DNA from: Pelagomonas calceolata
Lineage: Eukaryota; Sar; Pelagophyceae; Pelagomonadales; Pelagomonadaceae
Length of the DNA stretch: 64,000 nt
Direction of reading: 5' to 3'
Assembly (NCBI GenBank): GCA_918797485.1
Contig: CAKKNE010000004.1
Coordinates: 3,844,001-3,908,000, forward strand
Below are positions 2,677 through 61,868 of this stretch, one piece after another. The number at the start of each line of letters is the position of its first letter. Position 1 is the stretch's first letter. Below the pieces are notes generated by a model, which had not been told where the DNA came from, made no database searches, and saw nothing but the letters and a program-made list of their open reading frames with translations. The translations under genes and the position numbers were made by a program.

Positions 2677-2699
2677 GCTAGCGTCTGTAAGACACTAGC
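2677..2699 (-). promoter_or_regulatory. Near-palindromic promoter motif, copy 1
   Basis: On the minus strand this reads GCTAGTGTCTTACA then GACGCTAGC. It lies in the gap between EF-P and the SpoU methyltransferase, about 310 bp upstream of the latter's ATG. It is one of two strong copies found between genes of the same direction. Nothing else is recognised in the 2600..3009 gap except an introner-core relic (GCGTCGATGGCGT) near 2626. Confidence 0.6.
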
Positions 2700-3009
2700 A
2701 AGCGGCAGTGAGAGCGCTGTTTTGGCACGCCTCAAACGCGACACCCGTGCAGTGTTAACGCCGCAAAGTTGTGCCAGGACACACAGCGTACTCTACGCAC
2801 GCGTGCGCGAGAGAACGAGCACTGGCGGCAACCAAGCGCTGCGTTTGGACTCGGTACAACGCAAGGCTCTGCCACAGCAAAGCACACGAAGACGGCAGCA
2901 AGGCATTGGATAGTCGCGCGAACATCAGGACGCAGCAGTGCTGCGTTAAGAGCCAGCACGCGCCTCAACACCTGTGGTGCCGGCACGCAACGAAGTGCAT
3001 CGAACGAAG

Positions 3010-4959
3010 ATGAGCGCACCACAAAGCCCCCAAAGCCCGCACAGTCCGCACAAGTCCAACTGGATGCTCGACCAGGACAGCGGCGGCGACGACGACGACA
3101 AAAATACGATCCGCCTGCGCTACCTCTACCGCGGCGAGCACAAGCGCGACGGCCGCGTCGCGACGATCGCGTGCGAGAACGGCACCATAAAAACAAAGGC
3201 CGTCCTCGTCGCGCTCCGACGGGACAGGTCCGTCGACCTGGACCGCTTCGGCGTCGCGCTCTACGATGTGAAGGAAGAGGCCTGGCGGACGCTGACGGAG
3301 TTGGACGACGAGGTCGCCGTCGAGGGCGAGGCGCGCGCCGAGCTCTACGACACGCTCGAGCAAGAGGCAGATGATGCCGCGGCAGAGGCGGGCTACTTCG
3401 GCATTGGGATAGTCCGGGGCAAGACCGCGGGCAACGCGGGCGTGCTCTGGCGGTCCGCGGCGCAGCTCGGCGCGGCGTTCACGTTCACGGTCGGCGCGCG
3501 CTTCGAGAAGGAGGACGACAAGACGGACGCCATCGCGGCGTGGCGCCGCGTGCCGCAGTTCGCGTACGACGACGTCGCGCAGCTCGTGACGGCGACGCCG
3601 CGCGGCGCCGCCTTGGTCGGCGTCGAGATGGGCGGGCAGGCCCTCGAGACCTTCGCGCACCCGGAGCGCTGCGTGTATGTACTAGGTGCCGAGGACGAGG
3701 GCCTGCCGAAATCGGTAAGACGGGCGTGCCGCCACGTCGTGTCGCTGCCGTCGATTCGTTCGGCGTCGTACAACGTCGCGGTCGCCGGCGCGCTCGTGCT
3801 CTACGACCGGTTCATGAAGAGGAGCCGGCCCGTGCCGCCGCCGCTGCCATTACCAACGACGGTCGACGTCGAAGACGAGGCGGCCGAGCCGGTCTACTTG
3901 CCGATCATCCTCGTGCAGCGCGACTCGGCGACGGCGTCGCGCGTCGACGCGCTGCTGGAGCAGCGCCACGGCGCCGCGGTCGTCCGGAAAGCGACGGACG
4001 GCGATTTGAGCACGGAGGAATTCGCGCGGGCGCGGGCGCGGTTCTCGGTCGCGCGGGCCCACGACGCCGGTGCCGTCGCGTGCAGCATCGCGGCGGACCC
4101 GCTCCTCCAGGGCCACGTCCAGCGCTGCCTCGTGCTCGACCGGCGCGCGGCGGATGTTGCTAAAATCGCGCTCGGCGCGGAGACGTACCGCGTCGTCGCG
4201 CAGCCGGCGGGCCTCGCGACGCGCGTCGTCGACCAACTGCCCGAAAGCGTCGCGCTCGGCACCGCAGACGCGACGCACCTGCTCTGCGTCTGCGATTTCG
4301 GGGGCAAGGGCCTCCTGGCCGGCGTCGCGCCGGCCGCCGCGCGGCCGCGGCCTCCGCCGCGCCGGGAGCCGCGCGGCGCGGCCGTCCTGTCCGCCGCCGC
4401 GTTGATCTTCTTCGACCACGCCGTCCCTCGCGTCGGGGGGGCCTCGTCACGCCGTCGACCACGCAGGCGGGAGCTGGCGCGCCGGGGCCTCGTCGCGCCG
4501 ACGGTCGGGCGCTTCGAAGTCGTCGGGAACGTACCCGGCGCCGCGGACTACCTCCAGGCCTGCGGCCGCGCGCACGAATATTCGGACTCGATCGAGGTGC
4601 TGGTCGCGGACGGTCGGCGCCCGGTGTCCCGTCTTCAACTTCTTGCGACGACGCGACTCGCTTTGCCTCGCGCCGACGACGACGAGCGCGCTGACAAGGC
4701 AACCGCGCGCGCAGGCGACGGGCCCGCCCGCGCCGTCGAGGTGGCGTCGCAGCTGCTCCCCCAGCTGCACGGCGTGTTCGTCTGCGTCGTCGCGCCGCGG
4801 CACCGCGTCCGCGACGCGGACCTCGCCGCGGAGCTGGCCGCCGCGCTCCGCGCGGCGCTGCCGACGACGACGCGCGTGGTCGCGCCGCGATGCATGTGGC
4901 TCCTCGCGAACGCGAAGCTCGAGCGGACGCTACTGTGTCGGGTAAACTTAAAATCATGA
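3010..4959 (+). CDS. SpoU/TrmH-type RNA 2'-O-methyltransferase with long C-terminal extension
   Basis: SPOUT-class methyltransferase expected to methylate the 2'-O of a tRNA or rRNA ribose using AdoMet. The N-terminal half contains the family motifs: FGIGIVRGKTAGNAGVLWRS (motif 1), VYVLGAEDEGLPKSVRRAC (motif 2) and LPSIRSASYNVAVAGALVLY (motif 3, knot loop). The first 40 residues are S/P/H-rich. Residues from about 280 to 650 form a low-complexity, Ala/Arg-rich region without a domain I recognise; it resembles a degenerate repeat of the knot fold at best. Start 3010 is the first ATG; the open frame continues upstream only from GTG codons. The stop TGA overlaps the stop of convergent MED6 inside the hexamer TCATGA (4954..4959). 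Confidence 0.75.
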   Translation: MSAPQSPQSPHSPHKSNWMLDQDSGGDDDDKNTIRLRYLYRGEHKRDGRVATIACENGTIKTKAVLVALRRDRSVDLDRFGVALYDVKEEAWRTLTELDDEVAVEGEARAELYDTLEQEADDAAAEAGYFGIGIVRGKTAGNAGVLWRSAAQLGAAFTFTVGARFEKEDDKTDAIAAWRRVPQFAYDDVAQLVTATPRGAALVGVEMGGQALETFAHPERCVYVLGAEDEGLPKSVRRACRHVVSLPSIRSASYNVAVAGALVLYDRFMKRSRPVPPPLPLPTTVDVEDEAAEPVYLPIILVQRDSATASRVDALLEQRHGAAVVRKATDGDLSTEEFARARARFSVARAHDAGAVACSIAADPLLQGHVQRCLVLDRRAADVAKIALGAETYRVVAQPAGLATRVVDQLPESVALGTADATHLLCVCDFGGKGLLAGVAPAAARPRPPPRREPRGAAVLSAAALIFFDHAVPRVGGASSRRRPRRRELARRGLVAPTVGRFEVVGNVPGAADYLQACGRAHEYSDSIEVLVADGRRPVSRLQLLATTRLALPRADDDERADKATARAGDGPARAVEVASQLLPQLHGVFVCVVAPRHRVRDADLAAELAAALRAALPTTTRVVAPRCMWLLANAKLERTLLCRVNLKS

Positions 4960-5574
4960 ATCCTCGTTAGGAGTGCGCGGCTGGACGGCGGCGCCGTCGT
5001 TCAGCCGCATCGAGAGCACGCCCTCGGGGTAGTCGGCCATGTGCGTATCCACGAACGCCCGCAGTTTTAAATCTTCATCGTCGCGCGGCGGGTTCAGCCA
5101 GCCTCTAGATTCAAGCTCCGCGCGCGACCGCGGGGCTGGCGTTTTCTCGGATGCAAGGGCGGGCGCCTCGACGAACGCGCGCCGCGCCTCATCCAACCGA
5201 TCGCACTCGGCGCGCATCTCGCCGAAGGCCTTGGTCAGGTAATTGCCGGCCTTGCGCAACCTCGAAGTAGCGAGCGCGTCGATCGTCGGGCACTGGTAGA
5301 TCGTGCCGTCCAAGACATAAAAGTACGCCTCCACATCAAACCCGTCGCCCGTGGCCTTCTTGCGTCTTTTAGAAATGGCGAGGCAGCGCGGGTTCCGCGA
5401 CCGCTCGAGCGCGAACTCGAGGCCCTCGCCCGTTTCGTAGAACGGCGACCGCTCGAAGTAGGCCAAGACATTGTCCGCGCGCGCGCCGCCAACCTGCTGC
5501 AGCCAGACGGGGTCGAGGAAGCAAGTTGACGGTGTTACCGTCGTCTGGTCGATGGCTGCTGGTGGGGCGTCCAT
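4954..5574 (-). CDS. MED6: Mediator complex subunit 6
   Basis: MED6 belongs to the Mediator head module, which links transcription factors to RNA polymerase II. The protein of about 206 residues carries the family signatures in order: FLDPVWLQQ, VLAYFERSPFYE, then YFYVLDGTIYQCPT and SRLRKAGNYLTKAF. The C-terminal tail after about residue 150 is acidic and variable, as in other MED6 proteins. The ATG at 5574 (MDAPPAAIDQ) is the first true ATG; frame upstream has only a CTG/GTG-type start. It shares its promoter gap with the divergent methyltransferase gene, and the gap holds a near-palindromic motif copy. Confidence 0.85.
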   Translation of the reverse strand: MDAPPAAIDQTTVTPSTCFLDPVWLQQVGGARADNVLAYFERSPFYETGEGLEFALERSRNPRCLAISKRRKKATGDGFDVEAYFYVLDGTIYQCPTIDALATSRLRKAGNYLTKAFGEMRAECDRLDEARRAFVEAPALASEKTPAPRSRAELESRGWLNPPRDDEDLKLRAFVDTHMADYPEGVLSMRLNDGAAVQPRTPNEDS

Positions 5575-5720
5575 TTTTTCTATTGTGGTGGCGGCAGAGT
5601 TGCGCAAGTGCCGTTACGCGTTGTAATCGCAGCGATGCGATGCTCGAGGGAGTCGTTCTGCAGTTATTACAGCTCTACGAGCTTGTATGGTTGCAAACAC
5701 ACCAAATAGCCCAGGGGCTT

Positions 5721-5744
5721 GCTAGTGTCTTACACGACGCTAGC
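5721..5744 (+). promoter_or_regulatory. Near-palindromic promoter motif, copy 2
   Basis: Reads GCTAGTGTCTTACA then CGACGCTAGC. It sits in the 267-bp divergent gap between MED6 and the SAM methyltransferase, about 100-150 bp from both start codons. Confidence 0.65.
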
Positions 5745-5841
5745 CTCCGTGGCACTTCGGCGGGTAACTACGCACGACGCTCCACGAGCCTCGGGGCCGA
5801 TTCGGAGGACGCCGCGGTAATTCGGTCAGGCGCCATTGAAC

Positions 5842-6831
5842 ATGAAACTGTTCATCTCCCTCGCCCTCACTCTCGCGCCGCGCGCGACGGCCCGCTTGGC
5901 GAGGTACGCGCGGAACTCGACGAGTCACCCCGGCCGCTGTGACCGGAACGTGTTTGAACGGGAGTTCTACCTCCTCGCCAAGGGACTCGAGCCCACGTCG
6001 GACAAGGTGACGGCCCATTCGTATGAGACGATGTACGGCACGTTCGTATATCCACTGAAATTCGCGGCCCATACGCCCAGAATCTTAGAGATCGGCCTCG
6101 GTTGTAACATGGATTACGGCCCGGGGGCGTCGGTGAAGGCGCGAAGCGGCGTCGGTCTTCGACTCGAGGTCCCCCCAGGAGATCCGTTGTACCCCCGCAG
6201 ATATGGCGCCAGCTCCTGCCCTACGCCGAGCTCTGGGAGGCTGAATACGACGCCGCGTGCGTCGAAAAAGCGCGCGCGAAGGGCCAGCTCGAGGGTATCA
6301 AGACCGTCACGGGCGACCAGGGCGACTTCGCCGTCCTCAAGCGCTGGGCCGAGGAGATCGGCGGCGAGTTGGACGTCATCATCGACGACGGCGGGCACCG
6401 GTGTGGAAATCAAAGCTTCATTTCGAGACGCGTTACATTCGACTCATAAACCGTCCACAGGCGGACACAAGAACTCCCAGATCGGGCACTCGTTCGACGT
6501 CCTCTGGCCGCTCGTCCGCAACGGTGGGGTTTACGTTATCGAGGACCTCCAGGTCGGCCGGTTCAAGAGTTACGGCGGGGAAAAAATTAACTACGAGGAC
6601 ACGAAGGGCCGGGGCGTCATGGCCGACAAAATCAAGGACTGGATCGAACAGCTCGTAACGATTCCCCGCGTATTCAAGCACACGAAGGGCCGTGGATTCG
6701 AGCACAAGATCCCGGACGACGTCTCCTTCGTCTACTGCCAACTGGAGGCCTGCGTCATCGGCAAGCGCAATCGCCACGTCGAGGGTAGTCGTCCGGGTCT
6801 CCCAGGGCACGACTTCCCGGGGCGGCGCTGA
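5842..6831 (+). CDS. Class I SAM-dependent methyltransferase-like protein, two introns
   Basis: Exons 5842..6132, 6201..6390 and 6461..6831 give about 283 residues. A signal peptide (MKLFISLALTLAPRATA) points to secretion or the endomembrane route. The fold is that of small O-methyltransferase-like proteins: ILEIGLGCN is the AdoMet-binding motif I, VTGDQGD the next acidic strand, and DVIIDDGGHKNSQ followed by LVRNGGVYVIEDLQ the typical later motifs. Intron 1 (6133..6200, 68 nt) is an ordinary GT-AG intron; after it the frame reads GPGASIWRQLLPYAELWEA. Intron 2 is a tiny introner with a GC donor. ATG 5842 is the first ATG. The natural acceptor is unknown; sugar or cell-wall O-methylation is possible. 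Confidence 0.75.
   Translation: MKLFISLALTLAPRATARLARYARNSTSHPGRCDRNVFEREFYLLAKGLEPTSDKVTAHSYETMYGTFVYPLKFAAHTPRILEIGLGCNMDYGPGASVKARSGVGLRLEVPPGDPLYPRRYGASSCPTPSSGRLNTTPRASKKRARRASSRVSRPSRATRATSPSSSAGPRRSAASWTSSSTTAGTGVEIKASFRDALHSTHKPSTGGHKNSQIGHSFDVLWPLVRNGGVYVIEDLQVGRFKSYGGEKINYEDTKGRGVMADKIKDWIEQLVTIPRVFKHTKGRGFEHKIPDDVSFVYCQLEACVIGKRNRHVEGSRPGLPGHDFPGRR
6391..6460 (+). mobile_element. Miniature introner forming a 70-nt GC-AG intron
   Basis: The 62-bp element 6399..6460 begins CGGTGTGGAAATCAAAG and ends GTCCACAG. Flanks are GCGGGCAC (6391..6398) and GCGGACAC (6461..6468), an 8-bp TSD with one mismatch. Only splicing from the GC at 6391 restores the conserved DDGGHKNSQ motif; using the internal GTGTGG donor shifts the frame. 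Most internal sequence of larger copies is missing. Confidence 0.85.
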
Positions 6832-6882
6832 AGAGTAACAACACTAGTACAAAAAACAGCAATTACAAACAAAAGGGATCAA

Positions 6883-8994
6883 TCAAGCGTCCTCGGCCAC
6901 CGCTCGCAGCATCGCCGCGAAGTAGGCCGGCTCGAGGTGGTCGTCCAGGGCGCCGCCCGACGCGAGCGCGGACAGCATCTTGAGCTCGGCCTCGACGTAT
7001 TTAGAGTCGAGCCCGACGGACCCGAGCAATTCGGACGACGAGCTCCCCTGGATCGTATTGACGGACTTTTGGGTCAGCCGCGTCGCCGCGTCCAAAGCGC
7101 TCTGGACATCGAAGGGCTTGACGGATCGCGCCTCGCCCAATGCGTCGTCCAACAACGTGGCGAGGGGGCTCCCGGGCGGCGCCGGCCGCGTCACGACGCC
7201 GCTCAAACCGCCGTCGCCCTTCTTCAGGGGGCACTCTCCTTCATTCTCGCCCTCGACCCAGATTGTAGCGTTGGGCGACACCAAGATCGTGCTCCCGCCG
7301 TGGGCGTAGGAGAAGCCCCGCGGCAACCGAGCGACGATGTCCTGGCCGTTCACTAATCTGGAATGGGTCGGGACGGCCACGTCGAGTTGTGAGGCGAAGG
7401 CCGCGTCGCCGACGCGCGGCGCGCCGAGCGTCACGAGGTTGATAGCTGAAAATTTCGGGGCGTCCGCGACAGCAGCAACAGTAGACGTGCCGAGGAACCA
7501 GGGTTTTGACCGTGGTTTCCGCACGGGCAACGACCTAGTAGCATCTATACCATACGCCACGTCGAAGGCAAATAAAGTCGCCAGCGCGCCGCCGAGCGAG
7601 TGGCCCGTCACTAACAACTCCCAGTCCTCGGGTCTATCGTCGCAGGCTCTCAAAACGAGCTGCTTCAGGCGCATGGCGATGGAATCCAGCGCCCCGCGGA
7701 ACCCGGCGTGCACCGACGGGTCGCCCGCGGCCAGCGGCACGCTATCATCATAATCATCTCGCTCCATTTCAGCCTCGCGCGCCCAGGGCGTCATCAACGC
7801 CGACGCGTCCGTGACCACGTCGCGCGGTTCCGACGTGCCCCGGAAGCTCACCATTAACTTTTTTGATTGCGCGTCCCTCCAGAGCCCCGCCTGCGTGCCC
7901 GTTTTCGCGTGGTCCACGAAGCATAGCGCTTCATAGGCCGAGGCGTCCGCTATTTCACTCCAGTCGACACCGGCTTCCGGTGAGGCGCCCCTCACGACGT
8001 CCTGGCGCTCGTGCAATAAACGCGTGTCCGCGTCGAGATTTATGACATCGTCATCAGTATCAAAAGCCGCATACTTCAAGTCGAGCTCCAGACGGCCTTT
8101 TTTTTCATCATTAAGCATGTTGGCTCTTATACCGGCCGCGGCCATGGCCGCGAGAGCGACCCCTCCTGTCGCCAAACCGGCCGCCGCGCCGACGACCGCG
8201 CCCCCGACCAAGGCGCCGCCATCGAAGGCGATCTTGTCCTCGGCGTCCACGGCCAAATCGACGGTCCACCTTCTTTCCCCACCGGACAGCAACGCCCTTG
8301 ATAAAGGAATTTCGCCGACGCCGAGCAATCGGTCGGCGCTGGCCACGTCCTCGTCAAACACGCGAATAGCCAGCGCCGCCCGCTTCGGGTCCGCCACGTA
8401 CAAACAGTGGTAGTCCTCGGCGGGCCACTCCACGGGGTCCGGCGCGCGCCAGACCGTCTCTGTTCGAGCGACATCAGTGGCGTTCGACGCTCGGGCTCGC
8501 TGCGACCTCTTGGAAACCTTCTCGACGACCGCCAACCGACAGTAGGCGTCGACGCCCGCGCCCGACAGGGCGAGCTCCTCGAGCTTCAGGCCGCCCGTCG
8601 ACGGAGACTTTAAACCGGTGGCGCGGGCGACGCGCACTAACGCGGCCCCCGCGTAGCAGCTCCGGATGAAACTGGTCGAGCGGAACGCGACGTCGCAGCC
8701 GTCCGCGCCGCGCTCCCAGCGCGCGCCCGCCGGATCATTATAACACTCGAAGGCGAAGCCCGCGCAGAGCGCCGCCGTTTTCAACGAAAAGCTCGTGCGC
8801 GTCGGCGCGTCGATTCGTTTTCGCAGCGCGGCGTTTTCTCTTCTCAATCTTCCGCACTCTTCCTCCAGTTCCTCCCGCGTGAGGGCTGCTAAATCTGCGT
8901 CTGGCGTGGCGTGCTGTTTTGGCCTCAGGGCTCGCGGTGGTGGTACCAGAAATGCGTTCGCTGCGGCGAGGGCAACGAGCAGGACGCGACTCAT
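6883..8994 (-). CDS. Plastid-targeted class-3 lipase with C2-like domain
   Basis: About 703 residues. The start (MSRVLLVALAAANAFLVPPP) is a signal peptide with an ANAFLVP step, a good match to the heterokont plastid-import motif. A short coiled coil follows (residues about 35-62), then a C2-like domain (about 110-260; AYCRLAVVEKV, AIRVFDEDVASADRLLGVG with Asp residues that could bind calcium), a Gly/Ala-rich membrane-seeking stretch, and the alpha/beta-hydrolase. Catalytic signs are VSFRGTSEPRDVV, the nucleophile elbow VTGHSLGGALATLF, and VNGQDIVARLP with a later His (SYAHGG). It probably hydrolyses plastid galactolipids or triacylglycerol. It is convergent with the methyltransferase (51 bp) and divergent from WDR12. 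Confidence 0.85.
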   Translation of the reverse strand: MSRVLLVALAAANAFLVPPPRALRPKQHATPDADLAALTREELEEECGRLRRENAALRKRIDAPTRTSFSLKTAALCAGFAFECYNDPAGARWERGADGCDVAFRSTSFIRSCYAGAALVRVARATGLKSPSTGGLKLEELALSGAGVDAYCRLAVVEKVSKRSQRARASNATDVARTETVWRAPDPVEWPAEDYHCLYVADPKRAALAIRVFDEDVASADRLLGVGEIPLSRALLSGGERRWTVDLAVDAEDKIAFDGGALVGGAVVGAAAGLATGGVALAAMAAAGIRANMLNDEKKGRLELDLKYAAFDTDDDVINLDADTRLLHERQDVVRGASPEAGVDWSEIADASAYEALCFVDHAKTGTQAGLWRDAQSKKLMVSFRGTSEPRDVVTDASALMTPWAREAEMERDDYDDSVPLAAGDPSVHAGFRGALDSIAMRLKQLVLRACDDRPEDWELLVTGHSLGGALATLFAFDVAYGIDATRSLPVRKPRSKPWFLGTSTVAAVADAPKFSAINLVTLGAPRVGDAAFASQLDVAVPTHSRLVNGQDIVARLPRGFSYAHGGSTILVSPNATIWVEGENEGECPLKKGDGGLSGVVTRPAPPGSPLATLLDDALGEARSVKPFDVQSALDAATRLTQKSVNTIQGSSSSELLGSVGLDSKYVEAELKMLSALASGGALDDHLEPAYFAAMLRAVAEDA

Positions 8995-9049: not shown

Positions 9050-9073
9050 GCTAGTGTCTCACATGCCGCTAGC
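9050..9073 (+). promoter_or_regulatory. Near-palindromic promoter motif, copy 3
   Basis: Reads GCTAGTGTCTCACA then TGCCGCTAGC, with GCTT before and AAGC after. It is in the 311-bp divergent gap between the lipase and WDR12. The rest of this gap shows only a run of short GAC/CAGC-rich repeats (9225..9300). Confidence 0.65.
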
Positions 9074-11691: not shown

Positions 11692-11713
11692 CCTAGCGGA
11701 GTGAGATACTAGC
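11692..11713 (-). promoter_or_regulatory. Near-palindromic promoter motif, copy 4
   Basis: On the minus strand reads GCTAGTATCTCAC then TCCGCTAGG. It is 64 bp upstream of the DUF4239-like gene, in the divergent gap with the aquaporin. Beyond it, 11714..12156 holds no confident exon; ATGs at 11862 and 11955 are candidates for the aquaporin first exon. Confidence 0.5.
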
Positions 11714-14373: not shown

Positions 14374-14396
14374 CCTAGTGTGTTACGGACGCTAGC
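14374..14396 (+). promoter_or_regulatory. Near-palindromic promoter motif, copy 5
   Basis: Reads CCTAGTGTGTTACG then GACGCTAGC, in the divergent gap between the rhomboid (start 14301) and the tandem paralogue A (start 14593). Confidence 0.6.
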
Positions 14397-21039: not shown

Positions 21040-21063
21040 GCTAGTGTCTTACATGCCGCTAGC
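21040..21063 (+). promoter_or_regulatory. Near-palindromic promoter motif, copy 6
   Basis: Reads GCTAGTGTCTTACA then TGCCGCTAGC, in the 361-bp divergent gap between the coiled-coil gene and the nucleotide-sugar transporter, 109 bp from the former. Confidence 0.65.
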
Positions 21064-24768: not shown

Positions 24769-24791
24769 GCTAGTGTCTTACTGCCGCTAGC
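24769..24791 (+). promoter_or_regulatory. Near-palindromic promoter motif, copy 7
   Basis: Reads GCTAGTGTCTTAC then TGCCGCTAGC, one base shorter in the middle. It lies in the 212-bp divergent gap, only 37 bp from the F-box-like ATG. Confidence 0.65.
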
Positions 24792-24827: not shown

Positions 24828-25796
24828 ATGGATTCTCGCACGCGACAACGTGTGGAGGGCAGCGCCCGACCTGGTAGCATACCGCTGCGCCCGGAACTGG
24901 TCGAGTTTATGAGTGCGCGGTGCCTCAGCCGCTACTCCAGGTGCAGCAAAGTTGTGCGCGCCGACGTGCGCGAGGCCAACGCGTGGCAATTGCTCGCGGC
25001 GCGGCAAGCGCCGCTCGCGACGCCGCGAATCGCTCGCGACGCCTTGGAGATCGACGCAATATCGCGCGTGCGGTCGCACGTGCGCCGGCGGCTGCTCGCG
25101 GACGCTCTGGAGAATACCTCCGCGCCACGACTTAATCCAAACCACTTTGAGGATTTTACATTTTTTGTGCGCCTACGCCAGGATGATGTCGTGATTTGGG
25201 AGGGCGACCTACTTCATCAGCGAGCAGCAGCTGGAACTCCTTCTGACAACGGGTGCCTTCATCTTCCTTTGGCCGAAGTTTGGGCCACGATAAAGCAATC
25301 AGGTTCGTGCGCGGAGCTGACAACTTGGCTCGCACAGACAGGCACATTGCTGGAACAAGATCAGGCTGTCTTGGGACGTCTCTCGATAACTTTGGTCGCA
25401 ATTCGAAAATCAGACGAAGCAGTGGTCTCGCTTGGGCACTTTTCCATTCTAAGTTGGGATCAAGTATTCGGGACCGGCAACCCAGATCAGTCGTTTAAAT
25501 TTAATAGCTCTCCACATGTTCCTTTGTTTGCTTCGCCAGGCCATCAATTTCGGGCTGACTTGTGGCTAGGAACTTTACACGGCACGACTGGTGGAGGCAC
25601 ATTAGACTACCTCGATCTCGAGATAACTCATTCTGTGACGAGGGAAACTGCTCACAGTGGAGAACTATCTACACATTCGATGCGATATCTGCTGACGTAT
25701 CTCGCTGGAGTCCAGCCCTTCGAACGCGCAGCAGCGCTGAGGACGATCCAAAGCTGGGGGAGTATTGATTCCGACTCGGAGCCGGACTCGGATTAA
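24828..25796 (+). CDS. F-box-like N-terminal domain protein, unknown function
   Basis: About 322 residues. After a basic leader, PLRPELVEFMSARCLSRYSR then VVRADVREANAWQLL has the spacing of a degenerate F-box (Leu/Pro start, Cys-Leu, Trp end), which would bind Skp1; this is tentative. The rest (FTFFVRLRQDDVVIWEGDLL, VLGRLSITLVAIRK, LWLGTL) looks beta-rich and is not recognised. The tail is acidic and Ser-rich. Codon use is clearly more A/T-rich than neighbouring genes from about 25130 onward, as in the MYND-family genes at 44116 and 63076. It ends 38 bp before the stop of convergent citramalate synthase. Confidence 0.55.
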   Translation: MDSRTRQRVEGSARPGSIPLRPELVEFMSARCLSRYSRCSKVVRADVREANAWQLLAARQAPLATPRIARDALEIDAISRVRSHVRRRLLADALENTSAPRLNPNHFEDFTFFVRLRQDDVVIWEGDLLHQRAAAGTPSDNGCLHLPLAEVWATIKQSGSCAELTTWLAQTGTLLEQDQAVLGRLSITLVAIRKSDEAVVSLGHFSILSWDQVFGTGNPDQSFKFNSSPHVPLFASPGHQFRADLWLGTLHGTTGGGTLDYLDLEITHSVTRETAHSGELSTHSMRYLLTYLAGVQPFERAAALRTIQSWGSIDSDSEPDSD

Positions 25797-27921: not shown

Positions 27922-27945
27922 GCTAGTGTGTTACAGGTCGCTAGC
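27922..27945 (+). promoter_or_regulatory. Near-palindromic promoter motif, copy 8
   Basis: Reads GCTAGTGTGTTACA then GGTCGCTAGC, mid-way in the 442-bp divergent gap between citramalate synthase and Hub1. I see no other feature in that gap. Confidence 0.65.
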
Positions 27946-31836: not shown

Positions 31837-31860
31837 GCTAGCGCCATGTAAGGCACTAGG
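31837..31860 (-). promoter_or_regulatory. Near-palindromic promoter motif, copy 9
   Basis: On the minus strand reads CCTAGTGCCTTACA then TGGCGCTAGC. It lies in the 193-bp divergent gap between the HEAT-repeat gene and CIA30, about 85 bp from each start codon. Confidence 0.6.
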
Positions 31861-37565: not shown

Positions 37566-37588
37566 GCTAGCGTAATCGACGTACTAGC
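37566..37588 (-). promoter_or_regulatory. Degenerate near-palindromic motif
   Basis: The GCTAGC-type arms are intact but the centre differs from the other copies (minus strand GCTAGTACGTCG then ATTACGCTAGC). It sits 116 bp upstream of the small membrane protein. Confidence 0.35.
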
Positions 37589-44013: not shown

Positions 44014-44037
44014 GCTAGTGTGTTACAAGCCGCTAGC
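44014..44037 (+). promoter_or_regulatory. Near-palindromic promoter motif, copy 10
   Basis: Reads GCTAGTGTGTTACA then AGCCGCTAGC, with CTT before it. It is in the 282-bp divergent gap between the LON-domain gene and the MYND gene, about 80 bp from the latter's ATG. Confidence 0.65.
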
Positions 44038-44115
44038 TAACTTTTTCATCGTCCCTCTGGCGCGCGCGCCGCCTCGTAAATTTTATAGGGGCGTCCCCTG
44101 CCAGTGCTCGCGAAT

Positions 44116-44859
44116 ATGGGGAAGAAGAGTCGACGCGAGCGAGGAAGCAATAGAGAGTATTTAAGGAAAAAAGCAGATGAAAAAGTAGATGCCGTCGAGG
44201 AGGCCGATCCCGAATATAACAATCTAGAAAAGCTACCCAAAGGACTCGCGCAATTGGCTTTAAAATACCGCTTTGGCGGGGCACATCTACTCCGCGGAAA
44301 TTTGCGCAGCGTCAAAATTTGTAGCGGGTTAGTGGTCGGAATGCGCAAATCACGAAGCTACCAAAGGGGCGAACTGTTTGACGGAGATACGCAAATTTGG
44401 GCTGCACGGGACGCGATAGCGCTTAATGAATCGGATGGTGATGCCTTGGATGAGTACATAGGCGCGGTCGTCGGACTACAGTTTCCAAGGATGATTGGTA
44501 ACTGGGAAATTGGCGGTGGCCTCATTGGTGTGCTGAAATCCGTGGATTCCCAATACGCCCGCTTGAGCTTAAAGACCGTTGAGAGTTGGCCCCGCGTCCG
44601 ACCCCACTGGAAGCGGTTCCGGCGACGCCTTTGCGATTATTGTCCAGCGTGCGCCCACCTTACCGAGCCACGCTTCCTAGTTTGCAGCGGCTGCGGCAGG
44701 AAACGATACTGTTGCGAGGAGTGTCAGCGCGCGCAATGGCCTGCTCACCAGAATGATTGCCTTAAGTGGCAAAAGAAGCGCATATTACAGCAAAAGGTCG
44801 AAGCGTTCGAGCGATTCTCCATGGGGCAAGCGGACGCAGATGCGGACGCGCCTCGCTAG
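44116..44859 (+). CDS. MYND zinc-finger protein
   Basis: About 247 residues. A basic leader (MGKKSRRERGSNREYLRKK) is followed by a region with LPKGLAQLALKYRFGGAHLL and RSVKICSGLVVGM, not recognised. The C-terminal third is a MYND-type zinc finger: CDYCPAC, LVCSGCGRKRYCCEECQRAQ, then WPAHQNDC, with Cys and His spaced C-x2-C, C-x2-C, C-x3-C, H-x3-C. MYND fingers mediate protein contacts. ATG 44116 is second in frame after a weaker one at 44104. Codon use is more A/T-rich than neighbours. Pelagophytes carry large MYND families, and a second truncated one lies at the right end of this window. Confidence 0.75.
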   Translation: MGKKSRRERGSNREYLRKKADEKVDAVEEADPEYNNLEKLPKGLAQLALKYRFGGAHLLRGNLRSVKICSGLVVGMRKSRSYQRGELFDGDTQIWAARDAIALNESDGDALDEYIGAVVGLQFPRMIGNWEIGGGLIGVLKSVDSQYARLSLKTVESWPRVRPHWKRFRRRLCDYCPACAHLTEPRFLVCSGCGRKRYCCEECQRAQWPAHQNDCLKWQKKRILQQKVEAFERFSMGQADADADAPR

Positions 44860-46841: not shown

Positions 46842-46863
46842 ACTAGCGTACTGACACACTAGT
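46842..46863 (-). promoter_or_regulatory. Near-palindromic promoter motif, copy 11
   Basis: On the minus strand reads ACTAGTGTGTCAG then TACGCTAGT. It lies in the 332-bp divergent gap between EngB and the cyclophilin. No other feature is seen in the gap. Confidence 0.55.
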
Positions 46864-55245: not shown

Positions 55246-55887
55246 TCACTCACACAGTACGATACCCCTCATACCGTCATCTCTAATTTTCGCCCTCGGT
55301 CGTTCGCCGGTGCCGCGGAGCACGCCGTCGTCTAAACAACGCGTGCGCGGAAAGTGGCGCCGCAACACAATGCGCGCTGTTTCAGGCGCGCCGCTCACCG
55401 CAAGCACGCAGCCGCATTCTAGAAACGTCGCGGCCGCGTCCGCGAGCTTGGCGAGGATCGCGAGGCGATGCAGCGCCGCGGCATCCCAGGCGCCCTCCGT
55501 CGTAGAAAGAGCCGCGACGTCGTCGATTATTATCAGCGTCGGCCGCGCGTGGTCGCCCGGCCAGGACTGGCAGTTGTTCAAGATCCACGCAACGTCGGCG
55601 AGGCCCGCGACGTACTTTAAACGGACGCGGTCAAGCACTGGGCTGTCGGCGTGCCCGCGTAAAGTTGTAGTAGGCGGCGCGTCGGCCTCGTCGCGCAGCG
55701 GCGGCGGCGGCGCCGCGGCGTCGTCGCGCCGCCGGCAGAGCAGCAGCGGCGCCGCGGCGGCGTCGCGTTCCGCCGCGCGCCGCGCGAGGGCGAAGGCGAC
55801 GCCGCTCGTCATTCGCGGCGAGCCGCCGACAACAGCGAGGCGGGCTGTCGAGCAGTCCTTTCGGAGCGGTTCGTCGAGATAATCCAT
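55246..55887 (-). CDS. RecA-like ATPase-fold protein, possibly SWSAP1-like
   Basis: About 213 residues. RLAVVGGSPRMTSGVAFALA sits where a Walker A would be but lacks Lys, so ATP binding is doubtful. RVRLKYVAGLADVAWILNNC is a helical segment, and PTLIIIDDVAALSTTEGAW matches a Walker B strand with Asp pair. The rest is helix-strand (LAILAKLADAAATFLECGC then VLAVSGAPETARIVLRR) as in RecA-fold proteins. Shu-complex helper SWSAP1 has this size and layout, but the match is weak. The N-terminus MDYLDEPLRKD is at the first ATG. The upstream gap holds a near-palindromic motif. Confidence 0.45.
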   Translation of the reverse strand: MDYLDEPLRKDCSTARLAVVGGSPRMTSGVAFALARRAAERDAAAAPLLLCRRRDDAAAPPPPLRDEADAPPTTTLRGHADSPVLDRVRLKYVAGLADVAWILNNCQSWPGDHARPTLIIIDDVAALSTTEGAWDAAALHRLAILAKLADAAATFLECGCVLAVSGAPETARIVLRRHFPRTRCLDDGVLRGTGERPRAKIRDDGMRGIVLCE

Positions 55888-56111: not shown

Positions 56112-56135
56112 GCTAGCGGTCTGTAACACACTAGC
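56112..56135 (-). promoter_or_regulatory. Near-palindromic promoter motif, copy 12
   Basis: On the minus strand reads GCTAGTGTGTTACA then GACCGCTAGC. It sits 225 bp upstream of the RecA-like gene, and 23 bp after the 17-mer at 56159..56175 in that gene's direction. Nothing else is seen in 55888..56320 apart from two copies of CCATCATTCGT (56148 and 56188). Confidence 0.6.
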
Positions 56136-56175: not shown

Positions 56176-56320
56176 ATAACTAATTAAATCCATCATTCGT
56201 TACCGTATCGCCGAAATTCTCCTTCAGGGGACTCCGTGCGTACCTACTATTATTATGATGAGCCTGAGGCCTCCCCCCGCGCGGGGCGCTACTAGGGACT
56301 ACTAGTAAGACAAATAAAAC

Positions 56321-59300
56321 CTACCTACTCGGCGACACGCCAAGCCCCCGGTGGATCCGCCGCTGGTCGTCCGGCGACAGCTGCGCGACGACGTGACCCA
56401 AAGCCCCGGCCGGCGTCTGCGACGGCTCGAAGCCCCACCGCTTCACCGCCTTGTCCGCGTTCAGCAGCGTCAGCCTATTGGACCCGTCCGGCTCCAAGAC
56501 CACGCCCTCGTCGAGGCGGACGAGGGGCATGCCCGGCGCGCCGAGGCGCCGGTGGACGGCCGGTGATAACGTGAGCGTCCGCTCGCCGTTGCGCAGCTTC
56601 TCGAGATCAACGAACAGATTCCGCAATAGCGCCGGCAAACACGGCCCGTCCGCGGCGTCCATGACGACGTCCGCGGGCCCGCGCGGCGCGTCGCTCCCCA
56701 AGAAGCAGTGGTATGCGAGTCGCGGCGTGACACACACCCGGTAGAGCTCCCGCGGTTGCAATAGAGCACCCTTCAACCGCACGTCGCCGATGCGCCGACC
56801 AGGCGGTTTCGACGGGTCGAACCAGATCTGAAAACCGCTCGAGCAGTGGGGGAAAATATCGCAGTAGGCCGGGTACCGCGACAGGGCCCGTTCCAAGGCG
56901 CCCCACAGTTGGGCGCCCGTCGCTTCCAGCACCATAACCCCAGCACCATGGGTAGCCATCTGCTTGATCTCATTCACGTCGTGCATGTCTCGCGAGTAGG
57001 CCGTCGTCGGCCGCTGCTCGATATCCTTGATATGTAATGAGGTCGTGCGCATGACTCTAACCTTGGCCTCGCCGCCGGGGTAGCTCCTATCCCTCCCGGG
57101 ATCCGGGAGCGGTGCCAAAGCCGCGAGTTCGGCCACGGTCAATGCATGGCCTTCCGGCAGTTCACCCAAAGGCCGTAGAGCCGCCCCATCCACAATCGCG
57201 CAATCTGCCGCGGTCGCCGCACACGCGACGTCGGCCGCCACTTCGGCGGCCGACGCGCCGTAGTGCGTCTGCGCGAGGTTGCGGCCACCTTTCAACGCTT
57301 CTGCGGAGGCGTCGAGCGGTTTTCGTAGCTCGACCAGAGTAGCTAATAAACCCTTCGCCACCAAATCGCGCGCCTTGCCGACCAACGTAGCGACGGCGTC
57401 GCCGTTCCGCCACCTATTTAACACGGTAGCCCGGCCCGCGCCGACGGCGACCGTCGTCAAATCAACTTCCCTAACGATCTGCACCATTCTTTGCGGTTTC
57501 GGCGCCTCCACATGAGGTAAATGCAAGCGTAACCTCGCGAGGCGCTCGCAGTTCGCCGGCGCTCGGATGACCCAGGTCGCGCGGTCCCGCGGGAAGTCGT
57601 ACCTACAAGCGTTCACGCCGAAAGTTGATCTACGAGAACCGGAGACGACCACACAATCAGCGTAGCCCTGGCAGGCCTTGGCGACGAGCGCCCCGGGCTC
57701 GTCGAAGCGCGCGCCGCCGCCCACCGACGCTAATACTATGACAACATCAGCGCCGGCTTCTCTGAGGAGTTGCACCTCGCGCGCGGCGGCCTCCGGGGCT
57801 GCGCTTACATGAGCGGTCCCGACGTCGTCGTCGTCAATCCCCTCCTCGTCGTGCATGGGACCCGCGCCCGGGAGTGTGGCGGCCGACGCGGACAGGGAGT
57901 TTTCTCCGGCCACTCCAACAATGCCGATCTTGCGGCCGTGCCACGGGACCAGTTGCGAACGCATGGCATCCGCAACAGGCACGCCCCGATCATCGTGGCA
58001 GTTCGCCAACAGAGAAGGGAAGTTGCAGCCCCGATAGACGCGCGCGGCGTTCGGCAGGCCATAGTCGAAATCCCGCGCGCCGACACAAGCGGCATGCACG
58101 CCTAACTCATTGAGGATGGGCACCAAATGCTTGCCCTTCGTCACTCCCGACTCCACCGATGCGGCAAACGCGCCACCACATAACAGTAAGAGAGGTTCCA
58201 CGTGGTTCTTCTTCTTCGCGAGGTCCCGCTCCAACTGCACCAAGGACGCAAACCTCTCAAAACGAGAAACTTCCCGATGCGGCGTCGCCGGCCTGAGCTT
58301 CAGATCAGCTTTTTGTCTCACACCATCCACGGAACCCAAATCCCCAAACAAGAGCAGTGTCAACCGTTCTGTGGCGGTGACGCCGGACAGAGGCCCCGAG
58401 AAGAAGGGCGTCTTGGGCTTGGGAATTTCCGGTTCCTGGAGGAAGACCTCGGCCGCACTGGGACCCTTGTCTCGGTCTTCCTGGAGATCTTCTCTCTCAC
58501 CAAGCAAGTCTTCGTTTTGTTTCATAGCAGCACTGCGCGACGCTTCGCGCGTCTGCGCCCGTTGCGCTGCCGTCGGTAGGCGTCTCCCTAACAACCTCAG
58601 GAAGGTCTCCTTGTCCAGCTCCCAGGCCTTTAGGTCCGAAGAGGACGTTACTGTAGTCTTTTCAGTAGTGTAATTTAACAAAGCTTCGTGGCCGTGGTAT
58701 TGGTCCGGTCGCAGGACACCGACCTCGTCACCGTCGTCATCAACGACACAAGCACCTTGCTCGACGACGAAGAATCGCTCCGGCTGGTTGTCCTGGAACG
58801 CGAGACCGAAGCCCGGCCCGGTCTTGAGAGGAGCAAAGGCCGTCACGACCTGGTCCAAGAGCTCATCACTAATACCGTCGCAGAAGGGCGCCGCGGCCAT
58901 GATCTCGTAGAGCCAATTGGAAATCTTGCGCGGCTTGTAGTGCATGGGCGCCTTCCAGTCGTCTTCTCCGTCACTTTCTTCTTCTTCCACTGGTACCGGC
59001 GACAGGGATTCCTCCTTGCCGACCCAGGGCGGCATGTCCGGGCGCTCCTCGTTGTAGTGGACCTCCTTTTGAACCGGTTTCGGGGGAGACGGTTCCGGTG
59101 AAGACACTTCCTCCAAGTCAAACTCGGGGCCTACTGTTCTCCTTAATGTTTCCGCATCGAGCGCCCAGGTGATGCATGCATCTGAGGCTATGAGAGAAGC
59201 CTCCAAGGGTTCATCTTTGAGACAAGCTACTTCGCCATAGTATTGCGCATGTGTTTTACAGTCAATAGGACCTTCACTTTCAGTAGTAACATCGCAAGCA

Positions 59301-61603
59301 CCTACTTCTACCACGTACATATCTTCTGCGGATTCATCCTCAACAAGTAACACCTTGCTCGGTTCGCACCGGACCATGCGACAGGCATTCACTAAAACCC
59401 AGATCGCGGCCTCGTCCAAATGCGAGCAGAACGGCGCGTTCGAGAACACTTCATATAAGAAATTTTTCTGCTGCTTCTTCTTGTAGTGCACGGGCGGCTT
59501 GAACTCCTCCTCGGCCACTTCCTCGTAGTCGTCGACCACGGACTGCGCGGCCGCGGTTTTTGGTCGCGCCTCGTCGTCGGGCTTGGCCAAGTCCGACAGC
59601 CACGTCTGCTCGTCCTCCTCTTCCTGCGCTTGCCTCAGGAGCTCTTCGGCTCGGTCGAACTCGTCCAGGGCTTGTCTAGCGTCTTGGGCTGCCTTTGCTG
59701 CGGCATTCGCGGCGGCCGATGCTGCTTGAGAGGCTAAGCGTGCCGTTTCGACGGCTCGGTCCGCGGCGTTATCTAAAGCGTCTTGGGCTGCTTTTGCCGC
59801 GGCGGCGGCGGCGTCGCGCGCCTGCTTTGCGGCCAGAGCCGCTGCTTTAGCGGCTTCTGAAGCCGCTTCCGAGGCTAAGCGAGCACACTCGACCGCTCTA
59901 TCCGCGGCGTTATCCAAAGCACCGGAAATGAGGTCGCGGATGAACTGCGCCGCCCGTGCTGCCTCCGCTGCGGCGTCGGACGCCGCTTGCGACGCGAGAC
60001 GCGCGCACTCGACCGCGCGGTCGGCCGAATTATCAAGCTCGTTAGCCTGGTCGAAGGCGAAGGCCGCCTCTTTGCAGGCTTTGACGGCCTTCGCCGCTCG
60101 AGCTGCCGCGAAGGCCGCCGCCTCCGACGCGAGGCGCGCACATTCCACGGCTCGATCGGCGGCGTCGTCCAAATCGCCCGCGAACGCAAAGGCCCGTGCC
60201 GCATTGGCAGCGTTCCGGGCGGCGTCCGACGCCTTTCGAGCGGCGTCCGACGCCGCCTCCGACGCCAAGCGAGCGCATTCGACGGCCCGATCCGCCGCGT
60301 CGTCCAGTGCACCCTGTTGTATCTTCTCCTGTATAACAGTCTCGCAGAACTCATCGAACAAGTCCACGACGGCTCGATCAACGCATTCGTCGGCCACGGC
60401 CTCTTCCAGATACTCGTCGAAGAGCTTCGCGATACATTCCAAACAAGCAGCATTGGCCCGAGCAGCTAAAACGCCCTCCGCCTCTAAAGCAGCGTCGACC
60501 GCATTGTTCGCCGCCTCGTCCTCGGGATGCGGCGGGGTTGGTGGTGGGACATCTAAACCCGCCATGGGGTCCGGAGGGGGTTTATTTGCAGCGACTTCCG
60601 CGGCCGCCTCGGCGAACGCGGCGGCGATGGGGTCCAACAATTCGGCCGTCGACGCGTCGTCGTCGCCCTCAAACAACGGTTCCGGGATGGTGGTAGGCAG
60701 GTCTTCCGCATTGATGAGCTTCTCGGCAAATTCTGCCGCTCGCTCCTGGTCGACGAGCATCTGCGCGTGGGCCTCCTGGGCATCTGCTTCCGCTTGAGAC
60801 TCGGGGGGTAAGCCTAGCGCGTGTCGGTCGTTGTTCGATGCGGCCTTGGCTAGTCTTCGCAACGCATCTAGTACCGCGGGCGGCCGACACCCGGGTGCCA
60901 ACAATCTACGAGACCAGGCCACGAACCTTTCTCTCTCAAGAGTTTTCTCCTTCCTCTCCTTCTTTTCAACCAAGACAGATTGATCATCATCATCCGCTGT
61001 GGCGATCACGTCTTTCATACCAACATGTCCAACCTCTTCGTCCTCGGACTCGTCGGCACTATCATAGTCATCGGGAGCGTCCCACTTCCTCAGAGCTAAT
61101 TTGGCGGCTCTGTCTAGACCCTCCAGGCCCATGTAGATCTTCGAATCTTTCTCCCGGAACAATTCAGAGACGTGGCCCTCCTCCGTGAGCTTGAGGAACG
61201 CTTCCAGGGCTCGCGCTAGCGTCAGCAGACATACCGAGAGTTCGTGGCAGTTCAAGGCCCCGCGTTGCCTTAGATCAAATAAGTCGAAGATCCGCCTAGC
61301 TTTGCACCCCACGCCGTCGCCGACACCATGTAACGCGACCGGTCTGCTCACGACCACGACCCCACAGAGAAACGCCAAAGCATTGACCTCGCCGAACCGG
61401 CCAATGCCCTTCTCCGTCTGCAGTCGCGTCGCGCGCATCTCGGCCTCGCGCGAACCTCCGAGTAACTTCGACAGAGCAGCCGTGCTAATCATGAAGTCGC
61501 CCTCGCACTCGTCGCGATGTTTATGAACTATTCTATCCACATCTCCCACACTTAACAAGGGAAAGCAGGAGTAGGGCTCGGGCAGGCTCACCGTGGCGCC
61601 CAT
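56321..61603 (-). CDS. Giant multidomain protein: EF-hand, Ala-rich repeats, two degenerate cNMP domains, pseudo-5'-nucleotidase
   Basis: About 1760 residues and intronless. MGATVSLPEP at 61603 fits an N-myristoylation signal (Gly2, Ser6); the open frame above it has only GTG. RRIFDLFDLRQRGALNCHEL near residue 105-135 is an EF-hand-like unit. An acidic helical region follows. From about 59640 to 60330 a 40-50-residue Ala-rich module, headed DDAADRAVECARLASEAAS, repeats five times. Two cNMP-binding-like domains come next (NFLYEVFSNAPFC and NWLYEIMAAAPFC as starts; YYGEVACLKDEPLEASLIAS lacks the phosphate-binding Arg). The C-terminal 650 residues look like a UshA/CD73 5'-nucleotidase, but GNHEFD reads GARDFD and GHTH reads GSRRST, so catalysis is probably lost. 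Likely a membrane-linked signalling scaffold. Confidence 0.65.
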   Translation of the reverse strand: MGATVSLPEPYSCFPLLSVGDVDRIVHKHRDECEGDFMISTAALSKLLGGSREAEMRATRLQTEKGIGRFGEVNALAFLCGVVVVSRPVALHGVGDGVGCKARRIFDLFDLRQRGALNCHELSVCLLTLARALEAFLKLTEEGHVSELFREKDSKIYMGLEGLDRAAKLALRKWDAPDDYDSADESEDEEVGHVGMKDVIATADDDDQSVLVEKKERKEKTLERERFVAWSRRLLAPGCRPPAVLDALRRLAKAASNNDRHALGLPPESQAEADAQEAHAQMLVDQERAAEFAEKLINAEDLPTTIPEPLFEGDDDASTAELLDPIAAAFAEAAAEVAANKPPPDPMAGLDVPPPTPPHPEDEAANNAVDAALEAEGVLAARANAACLECIAKLFDEYLEEAVADECVDRAVVDLFDEFCETVIQEKIQQGALDDAADRAVECARLASEAASDAARKASDAARNAANAARAFAFAGDLDDAADRAVECARLASEAAAFAAARAAKAVKACKEAAFAFDQANELDNSADRAVECARLASQAASDAAAEAARAAQFIRDLISGALDNAADRAVECARLASEAASEAAKAAALAAKQARDAAAAAAKAAQDALDNAADRAVETARLASQAASAAANAAAKAAQDARQALDEFDRAEELLRQAQEEEDEQTWLSDLAKPDDEARPKTAAAQSVVDDYEEVAEEEFKPPVHYKKKQQKNFLYEVFSNAPFCSHLDEAAIWVLVNACRMVRCEPSKVLLVEDESAEDMYVVEVGACDVTTESEGPIDCKTHAQYYGEVACLKDEPLEASLIASDACITWALDAETLRRTVGPEFDLEEVSSPEPSPPKPVQKEVHYNEERPDMPPWVGKEESLSPVPVEEEESDGEDDWKAPMHYKPRKISNWLYEIMAAAPFCDGISDELLDQVVTAFAPLKTGPGFGLAFQDNQPERFFVVEQGACVVDDDGDEVGVLRPDQYHGHEALLNYTTEKTTVTSSSDLKAWELDKETFLRLLGRRLPTAAQRAQTREASRSAAMKQNEDLLGEREDLQEDRDKGPSAAEVFLQEPEIPKPKTPFFSGPLSGVTATERLTLLLFGDLGSVDGVRQKADLKLRPATPHREVSRFERFASLVQLERDLAKKKNHVEPLLLLCGGAFAASVESGVTKGKHLVPILNELGVHAACVGARDFDYGLPNAARVYRGCNFPSLLANCHDDRGVPVADAMRSQLVPWHGRKIGIVGVAGENSLSASAATLPGAGPMHDEEGIDDDDVGTAHVSAAPEAAAREVQLLREAGADVVIVLASVGGGARFDEPGALVAKACQGYADCVVVSGSRRSTFGVNACRYDFPRDRATWVIRAPANCERLARLRLHLPHVEAPKPQRMVQIVREVDLTTVAVGAGRATVLNRWRNGDAVATLVGKARDLVAKGLLATLVELRKPLDASAEALKGGRNLAQTHYGASAAEVAADVACAATAADCAIVDGAALRPLGELPEGHALTVAELAALAPLPDPGRDRSYPGGEAKVRVMRTTSLHIKDIEQRPTTAYSRDMHDVNEIKQMATHGAGVMVLEATGAQLWGALERALSRYPAYCDIFPHCSSGFQIWFDPSKPPGRRIGDVRLKGALLQPRELYRVCVTPRLAYHCFLGSDAPRGPADVVMDAADGPCLPALLRNLFVDLEKLRNGERTLTLSPAVHRRLGAPGMPLVRLDEGVVLEPDGSNRLTLLNADKAVKRWGFEPSQTPAGALGHVVAQLSPDDQRRIHRGLGVSPSR
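59640..60330 (-). repeat. Coding tandem repeat, five Ala-rich modules
   Basis: Five units in the giant protein share DNADRAVEC/TARLAS-type heads (for example DDAADRAVECARLASEAAS, DNSADRAVECARLASQAAS, DNAADRAVETARLASQAAS) followed by variable Ala/Lys helices. DNA identity between heads is high, suggesting recent amplification. Confidence 0.8.
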
Positions 61604-61846
61604 TGTGGTAGCCTCCGGCGCCACGCACGCGTCCTGCGCGTTTGTTTGTTAAGCTGTTGGACCGCGAGGCAGCCCCGCGTGCGTGCCGTGCCCAAGCGGG
61701 CAGCCCTATCGCGCGCAGCGCTGGCTGTTGGCCCAAGCCGCTGCGAATTTGGCGCTAGGGTGTCGCTCCCACGGATGCCTCGCCAGGGCTCGCTGACGAC
61801 GGGTCCGTGCCGGGCTCGTAACGGTGCTTCGGAGTCGTATGACGGA

Positions 61847-61868
61847 GCTAGCGGCGTGAGACACTAGC
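61847..61868 (-). promoter_or_regulatory. Near-palindromic promoter motif, copy 13
   Basis: On the minus strand reads GCTAGTGTCTCAC then GCCGCTAGC. It lies mid-way in the 505-bp divergent gap between the giant protein and SFT2. No other feature is seen there. Confidence 0.6.

Follow-up and report, generated by a model that had tools for sequence, protein, structure and literature searches.

A near-palindromic element in the divergent gene gaps of Pelagomonas calceolata, a putative site of a general regulatory factor

We analysed a stretch of 64,000 nucleotides of the abundant ocean alga Pelagomonas calceolata (assembly GCA_918797485.1, contig CAKKNE010000004.1, positions 3,844,001 to 3,908,000 of the forward strand), which we call the window, and in it a near-palindromic element of 21-23 letters with the consensus TTGCTAGTGTSTTAC-N(2-4)-CGCTAGCT. 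An earlier interpretation, made from the letters of the window and referred to here as the sequence-only reading, had noticed the element upstream of genes, mainly in divergent gaps. The genome carries thousands of copies, mostly in short gaps between oppositely read genes; they are free in orientation and are conserved in a relative. We give a probability of about 70% to the proposal that the element is bound by a general regulatory factor acting at compact bidirectional promoters. Strain RCC100 is described with 32.4 Mb of nuclear DNA in six contigs, a plastid and a mitochondrial genome, a GC content of 63.6% and 16,667 genes (PMC9481584). The GC content of the window is 63.8%. The 6 homologues obtained for one protein of the window include one from the pelagophyte Chrysophaeum taylorii.

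Copies of the element in the window

We searched the window with CTAGTGTNTTAC-N2/3/4-CGCTAGC, allowing at most three mismatches, and used 50 dinucleotide shuffles of the window as a control. The window has exactly 13 matches, while 49 of the 50 shuffles gave none and the remaining one gave a single match. All 13 copies listed in the sequence-only reading are present, with starts at most one base from the positions it quoted, and both orientations occur as it had said, seven on the plus strand and six on the minus strand. The spacer from TTAC to CGCTAGC varies: it has 2 bases in 3 copies, 3 bases in 3 and 4 bases in 7. Two copies (11692 and 46842) are weak, with three mismatches each. A further weak candidate at 37566-37587, with a weight-matrix score of 14.7, was left out of the count.

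Genes were predicted with a purpose-built small hidden Markov model. By these calls nine copies lie in divergent gaps and four in tandem gaps, and all 13 are upstream of at least one called start codon, as had been claimed. Among the divergent cases, four plus-strand copies are exact: 5722..5744 (spacer 4; one flank Med6-like, 4954-5607 on the minus strand), 14375..14396 (spacer 3; one flank a rhomboid gene, minus strand), 21041..21063 (spacer 4; both flanks without Pfam match) and 27923..27945 (spacer 4; one flank 2-isopropylmalate-synthase-like, with HMGL and LeuA dimer domains, minus strand). Three have one mismatch: 9051..9073 on the plus strand (spacer 4), between a class-3 lipase/C2 gene (minus) and an NLE/WD40 gene (plus); 31837..31859 on the minus strand (spacer 4), with a CIA30 gene (plus) on one flank; and 61847..61867 on the minus strand (spacer 2), between a cyclic-nucleotide-binding-domain gene (minus) and a Got1/Sft2-like gene (plus). 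The two weak copies, both on the minus strand with a spacer of 2, are 11692..11712, flanked on one side by a bestrophin-like gene (minus), and 46842..46862, between a GTPase gene (minus) and a cyclophilin gene (plus). The four copies called tandem are all exact. Two are on the minus strand, at 2677..2698 (spacer 3) and at 56112..56134 (spacer 4), the latter upstream of the gene at 55246-55887 (minus). The other two, on the plus strand, each face on their other side an open reading frame that the caller missed: 24770..24791 (spacer 3) lies between a Vma12-like gene (minus) and a frame at 24828-25796 (plus) without Pfam match, and 44015..44037 (spacer 4) lies between a LON substrate-binding-domain gene (minus) and a MYND-finger frame at 44104-44859 (plus). 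With these two added, the number of copies in divergent gaps becomes 11, the number given by the sequence-only reading.

A Pfam scan of 27 proteins of the window found matches in 20, and 14 of these, the ones named above, adjoin a site. Their functions are mixed and mostly general, which in this small sample disfavours a narrow regulon. No tRNA or known RNA family was found in the window.

Number, form and placement in the genome

Genome-wide counts refer to the P. calceolata assembly (32,445,274 bases in 8 contigs), with the pattern read backwards as control. The exact form CTAGTGTNTTACANNNCGCTAGC occurs 543 + 559 = 1,102 times, and the backwards pattern 0 + 0 times. At two mismatches or fewer, spacers of 2, 3, 4 and 5 bases give 435, 924, 2,315 and 248 matches against 3, 0, 1 and 0 for the controls, about 3,900 in total, a few of which may count under two spacers; the spacer is thus mostly of 2-4 bases, and of 5 in 248 of the 3,922 matches. 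At up to three mismatches and a spacer of 4 there are 2,555 matches, against 22 for the control.

For form and placement we used a 314-kb gene-called sample consisting of the window, C1:1,000,001-1,200,000 and C2:1,000,001-1,050,000 (C1 to C6 denote contigs of the assembly, C4 being that of the window), with 44 + 119 + 26 predicted genes. A gapped weight matrix was seeded on CTAG...GCTAG matches, and its control was the reversed sequence. It finds 62 sites scoring at least 18, which we call strong, and 69 scoring at least 6, only seven more lying between 6 and 18; the reversed sequence gives 0 and 3. Sites are strong or absent, with hardly any weak tail. The information of the element, summed over columns, is about 34 bits, a somewhat high figure since the matrix ignores the cost of the variable spacer, and by arithmetic about 14 bits would suffice to pick 3,900 places among 65 million. 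Such over-specification possibly comes from very effective selection in so large a population.

The arms are of the dimer type around an asymmetric centre, as the sequence-only reading had described: GCTAGTG...CGCTAGC, with TTAC fixed to the left arm. In the 314-kb sample the left arm with its TTAC (CTAGTGTNTTAC) occurs 40 times within full sites and once outside them. The asymmetric arm form is found 55 times, against 2 for the reversed control, and few sites have identical halves: CTAGTG...CACTAG stands at one place and CTAGCG...CGCTAG at two, with both strands counted for each. Flanks show a preference for CAAGC, read outward, on the left, and for short T or A tracts. The sample is denser in sites than the genome mean: its 23 exact copies would scale to 2,377, compared with the 1,102 counted. 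A local extrapolation of 6,406 sites is for this reason too high, and we use the genome counts instead.

Of the 66 sites scoring at least 10, on which densities are based, 45 lie in divergent gaps (67 gaps, 28.7 kb), 19 in tandem gaps (52 gaps, 23.0 kb), 1 in a convergent gap (67 gaps, 9.9 kb), 1 in an intron (8.7 kb of introns) and none in coding sequence (241.8 kb). Equal density in convergent gaps and coding DNA had been named as the finding that would speak against a promoter mark; the densities are 1.57 sites per kb in divergent gaps, 0.83 in tandem gaps, 0.10 in convergent gaps and 0.00 in coding sequence, and the enrichment in divergent gaps has a binomial p of 2e-30. The 62 strong sites comprise 43 divergent, 17 tandem, 1 convergent and 1 in a predicted intron, so that 60 of 62 lie in divergent or tandem gaps. 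The claim that coding DNA has no copy holds (0 of 13 in the window, 0 of 62 in the sample); the parallel claim for convergent gaps does not quite, given the one strong site there. A strong site is present in 42 of the 67 divergent gaps.

Within divergent gaps the site prefers the middle: for the 43 divergent cases, the mean absolute deviation of its relative position from 0.5 is 0.12, where a uniform distribution would give 0.25. Median distances to the called start codon are 166 bp on the left-arm side, where they range from 56 to 410 bp, and 190 bp on the right-arm side. In the 17 tandem cases the site has the same orientation as the gene in 8 and the opposite one in 9. A directional core promoter element is disfavoured by this free orientation together with the variable distance to the start codon.

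Several other observations concern the distribution of sites and words. A close pair of copies lies at 165734 and 165768 of the joined C1 stretch. Sites recur near the same coordinates in the first 260 kb of C1 and C5 (112203/112264, 145549/145624 and 254972/254904), in line with the large duplicated contig ends mentioned for this genome (PMC9481584). On C1, followed up to 3.10 Mb on both strands, there are no exact sites in 2,585,325-2,927,312 (342 kb), and no exact sites with a spacer of 3 in 2,545,233-2,963,179; mismatched copies are incompletely listed, and the statement holds for exact copies. A 2.0-kb piece of this region has 47.7% GC. One low-GC, probably centromeric region per contig, with gene number just slightly lower, has been described (PMC9481584), and promoters in such presumed centromeric regions may do without this site and use other signals. 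In the gaps of the 314-kb sample a second promoter word, GGCAGCC/GGCTGCC, is frequent upstream of genes (69 and 58 occurrences against about 15 expected each), at broadly spread positions relative to the main motif, and TTGCAAA is likewise enriched upstream of genes (16 against 2.5 expected). We found no convincing position-specific initiator around the sites.

Conservation, transcript starts and the CpG trough

Outside P. calceolata, a collection of genome contigs gave the element at 4 loci, from two marine metagenome-assembled genomes (MAGs) that GTDB assigns to 'Spirochaeta', MED672 and ERR599032_bin.133; a collection of viral contigs gave 0 copies. At up to three mismatches the two MAGs give 5 and 1 matches compared with 3 and 6 control matches, so we give weight to exact or one-mismatch copies only (4 and 1). 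Contigs L009-L012, L038, L042 and L043 of these MAGs resemble a relative of Pelagomonas. Three of them, L011, L012 and L038 (all MED672), are collinear with P. calceolata C6 and C4, with aligned blocks 80-94% identical (70% in one that starts just before a site), and this collinearity and identity indicate that they derive from a relative of Pelagomonas. The reference MAGs look contaminated, or else misassembled. L009, judged by its open reading frames, seems to be a chimera in which a eukaryote-like, motif-bearing stretch is enclosed by bacterial genes.

Orthologous gaps were sought from the relative first and then in RCC100, and seven were compared, with the relative's copies on L009, L042 and L043 left out. 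Six of the seven retain the site, with 15-18 of the 18 arm letters identical (for two pairs, at 16 and 15 of 18, slightly understated because the pattern extended to a further GCTAG), while in ungapped flanks anchored on the site 25-43 of 120 positions agree, a figure lowered by indels. Three of the six conserved pairs had been chosen for an exact match in the relative; among the other four pairs three are conserved. One of the six conserved copies is flipped and has a different spacer length (C6 (L044) against L011), which suggests turnover or inversion of the site without its loss. In the seventh gap a site is present in the relative, while RCC100 shows nothing that matches the pattern. For one of the relative's copies, about 14 bases beyond the site recur at several places in the genome. 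Segments L011:299-455 and L012:1432-1545, 2251-2400 and 5889-5998 have many similar copies (about 70-97%) across the Pelagomonas genome, and are perhaps introner elements as named in PMC9481584.

Where transcripts begin can be approached through upstream ATGs. On 101 gene sides we counted out-of-frame ATG on the outward strand, from the site to the called start codon, with antisense CAT as control. ATG counts (and expectations by composition) are 10 (12.6) at 0-15 bp, 7 (13.4) at 15-30 bp, 2 (10.8) at 30-45 bp, 5 (11.8) at 45-60 bp and 0 (15.5) at 60-80 bp. Beyond 30 bp there are 33 ATG against 106 by composition, while CAT occurs 140 times against 128. Composition overstates the expectation: past 30 bp, the mean over the five other permutations of these three letters is about 79. 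Within 0-30 bp, ATG occurs 17 times, against 26 by composition and about 15 by the other permutations. From this avoidance of outward ATG from about 30 bp, transcripts probably begin 15-45 bp (around 30 bp) outward on both sides of the site.

The flanks also carry a symmetric trough of CpG. Measured from the site edge on 140 sides, CpG per base is 0.081 at 132-160 bp, against 0.131 before and 0.138 after; on 119 sides the contrast is -0.055, with z -8.1 against random jitter. The minimum falls at 147 bp whether the even or the odd half of the 103 gene sides is taken, and again in 16 extra sides. It is not due to the word GGCAGCC/GGCTGCC, since masking it leaves the values unchanged (0.132, 0.082 and 0.139). 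Nor is it a start-codon effect: it is absent when sides are aligned on the start codon, and its place does not differ between near (66) and far (37) start codons. CA+TG rises in the trough (z 5.4), CA (4.4) more than TG (1.9). Given this inequality, decay of methylated CpG in a positioned linker is the likelier cause of the trough and the rise, and a CA-containing element a less likely one. At 315 bp lies a further, weak trough (CpG z -3.2, CA+TG z 0.7); the neighbouring centres at 305, 310, 320 and 325 have z of -0.7 to -1.75, and those at 300 and 330 are slightly positive. There is no CpG trough at 483 bp, no 10-base AA/TT periodicity between site and trough (best period 15.4), and no clear nucleosome repeat in the genome-wide autocorrelation of CpG.

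A possible agent for such methylation is encoded in the genome. On the plus strand of C1, PF00145 (2768699-2769859) and PF00176 (2772110-2772451) match within one open frame of 2,236 amino acids, their common frame established by coordinate arithmetic. DNMT5 likewise joins a DNA methylase and a SNF2 domain, and it has been linked with linker methylation in the pelagophyte Aureococcus (PMC9998398). This DNMT5-like gene lies in the region of C1 that has no exact copies. The symmetric trough at 147 bp hints at phased, methylated chromatin. If a nucleosome filled the space from site to trough, it would touch the factor; alternatively the trough may lie at the edge of a nucleosome-free region, with the first nucleosome about 170 bp out.

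Interpretation and comparison with known systems

The sequence-only reading had left the choice between a core promoter and a common transcription factor site. We favour the common factor site, and not a directional core element, because orientation is free and the distance to the called start codon varies. A factor-bound element of bidirectional promoters explains the placement, symmetry, free orientation, conservation and number of the copies. One sequence-specific, probably dimeric nuclear protein would bind the element as double-stranded DNA, its two subunits contacting the two inverted GCTAGYG half-sites and one of them also reading TTAC, which would account for the asymmetry of the centre. 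Sitting close to the middle of a gap that measures about 400 bp, the factor would keep a short nucleosome-free stretch open, and transcription would begin outward on both sides, some 30 bp off; in tandem gaps one gene would be served. As orientation is immaterial, the factor would set the place and openness of the promoter rather than its direction. A more extended version is tentative, and we hold it to be rather less than an even bet: that one factor organises most divergent promoters with two starts about 30 bp out and nucleosome arrays, and that DNMT5-type linker methylation has led to mirror-image CpG decay at 147 (perhaps 315) bp. If that were true, chromatin architecture would be readable from sequence alone.

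Several results weigh against the factor-bound promoter element or its details. The gene models are simple and their starts imprecise. At 15-30 bp the CAT control is as low (7 of 13.6) as ATG (7 of 13.4), so that the point at which avoidance sets in is fixed no better than to about 15-45 bp, and scattered starts would give a similar pattern of ATG. On the 17 gene-free sides, too few to serve as a control, there are 20 ATG against 22.7 expected (10 of 17.9 within 100 bp and 10 of 4.8 beyond), and the deepest CpG trough is at 70 bp, not at 147 bp, where the contrast is -0.045 (z -2.4). The 25 of 67 divergent gaps without a strong site are no shorter than the rest (median 417 against 397 bp), and the element is thus not needed for divergence. 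Finally, the distance from the Reb1 site to the +1 nucleosome in yeast is 82 +/- 33 bp (PMC8163753), a value that does not simply fit a linker at 147 bp separated from the site by an entire nucleosome.

The likeliest alternative, which we nevertheless think improbable, is a directional core promoter element, comparable to TATA or the initiator, that is near-palindromic and serves both sides through the general machinery. The usual distance from TATA to the start is about 30 bp, which matches the outward start estimated here, and the footprint of 21-23 bp in 42 of 67 divergent gaps would suit such an element. The fixed orientation expected of it is not found: despite the asymmetric centre, tandem sites face both ways (8 same, 9 opposite) and one of six conserved pairs is flipped. 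Core promoter elements carry information far below the roughly 34 bits found here, and the flanks contain few copies of TATA[AT]A (7 in 400 bp of 140 sides).

A large regulon (light, cell cycle or growth, for example) under an ordinary specific transcription factor would account for a high-information, dimer-type motif and for the 25 divergent gaps that do without it. We consider it improbable in view of about 3,900 copies for 16,667 genes (PMC9481584), many between two genes, the unrelated functions of the 14 Pfam-matched flanking genes of the window, and the preference for mid-gap. There is also little probability that the site is an insulator, a replication origin or a DNA-modification site lying in divergent gaps as open DNA, without a role in the promoter. 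The symmetric, chromatin-like CpG pattern would fit, as would the hint of it at 147 bp on the gene-free sides (z -2.4, though deepest at 70 bp), and adenine methylation of the CTAG type has been reported in a virus of the related alga Aureococcus (PMC12700378). Against these stand the tandem gaps, half as dense in sites yet frequently occupied, the near absence from convergent gaps, a spacing of one per about 8 kb (by arithmetic) that is dense for origins, and the avoidance of ATG starting close to the site. A short mobile or repeated element (a miniature inverted-repeat transposable element remnant or similar) spread into promoter gaps, suggested by the very high number of near-uniform copies and the close pair at 165734/165768, was rejected as highly implausible, since beyond the site there are just short flank preferences and no long shared flanks (apart from the 14 or so bases of one copy in the relative), orthologous places are kept while flanks diverge, the gaps are discrete, and 0 of 62 strong sites lie in 242 kb of coding sequence; target-site duplications were not searched for. 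An RNA hairpin in the 5' untranslated region was also rejected, as both orientations are used and the inferred transcripts begin outside the site.

A factor-bound promoter element of this kind could be used as a promoter predictor in gene annotation and in two-gene expression cassettes for P. calceolata. It also raises a testable general question: is the positioning of chromatin recorded around barrier sites as a CpG scar that can be read? Among the open-licence literature matches listed, no title or opening of an abstract names the motif, and, to judge by their titles, the matches listed when parts of the consensus were searched as text are unrelated. The words promoter and motif are absent from the main text of two Pelagomonas articles (PMC9481584 and PMC13284251). 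As far as could be found, pelagophyte promoters are undescribed.

Comparable elements are known from other lineages. In animals, NRF1, ZNF143 and the Drosophila factors M1BP and DREF have motifs that are palindromic or long and belong to bidirectional or housekeeping promoters. The CGCG element TCTCGCGAGA also occurs at such promoters in animals (PMC6192621). Judged without a motif library, none of these has a nameable sequence resemblance to the Pelagomonas element. Like it, CTCF has a long and strict site; chromatin is phased to either side of CTCF, as the CpG trough hints for the Pelagomonas element. CTCF belongs to animals and its site is mostly not an element of promoter centres. Preferential linker methylation has been described at CTCF-organised arrays (PMC5728721). 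Among stramenopiles, the oomycete INR and FPR elements lie near the transcript start, in genomes where the same source detected no TATA boxes; they are 16-19 nt long, directional, at the start site, and well conserved together in about 13% of genes (PMC3599244). By comparison the Pelagomonas element is near-palindromic, free in orientation and upstream of the inferred starts.

The closest likeness, drawn from sequence and without a claim of membership, is to the sites of yeast general regulatory factors, in whose manner the element may work. The sites of Reb1, Abf1 and Rap1 are likewise short and sequence-specific, lie in promoters, and probably keep these open. The Pelagomonas site is much longer and stricter (about 34 bits), prefers the middle of divergent gaps, and has another consensus. 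Reb1 phases nucleosomes symmetrically on both sides of its site (PMC8163753), and yeast general regulatory factors also limit divergent noncoding transcription (PMC9481977); in Pelagomonas, unlike in yeast, the two divergent directions are mostly both coding.

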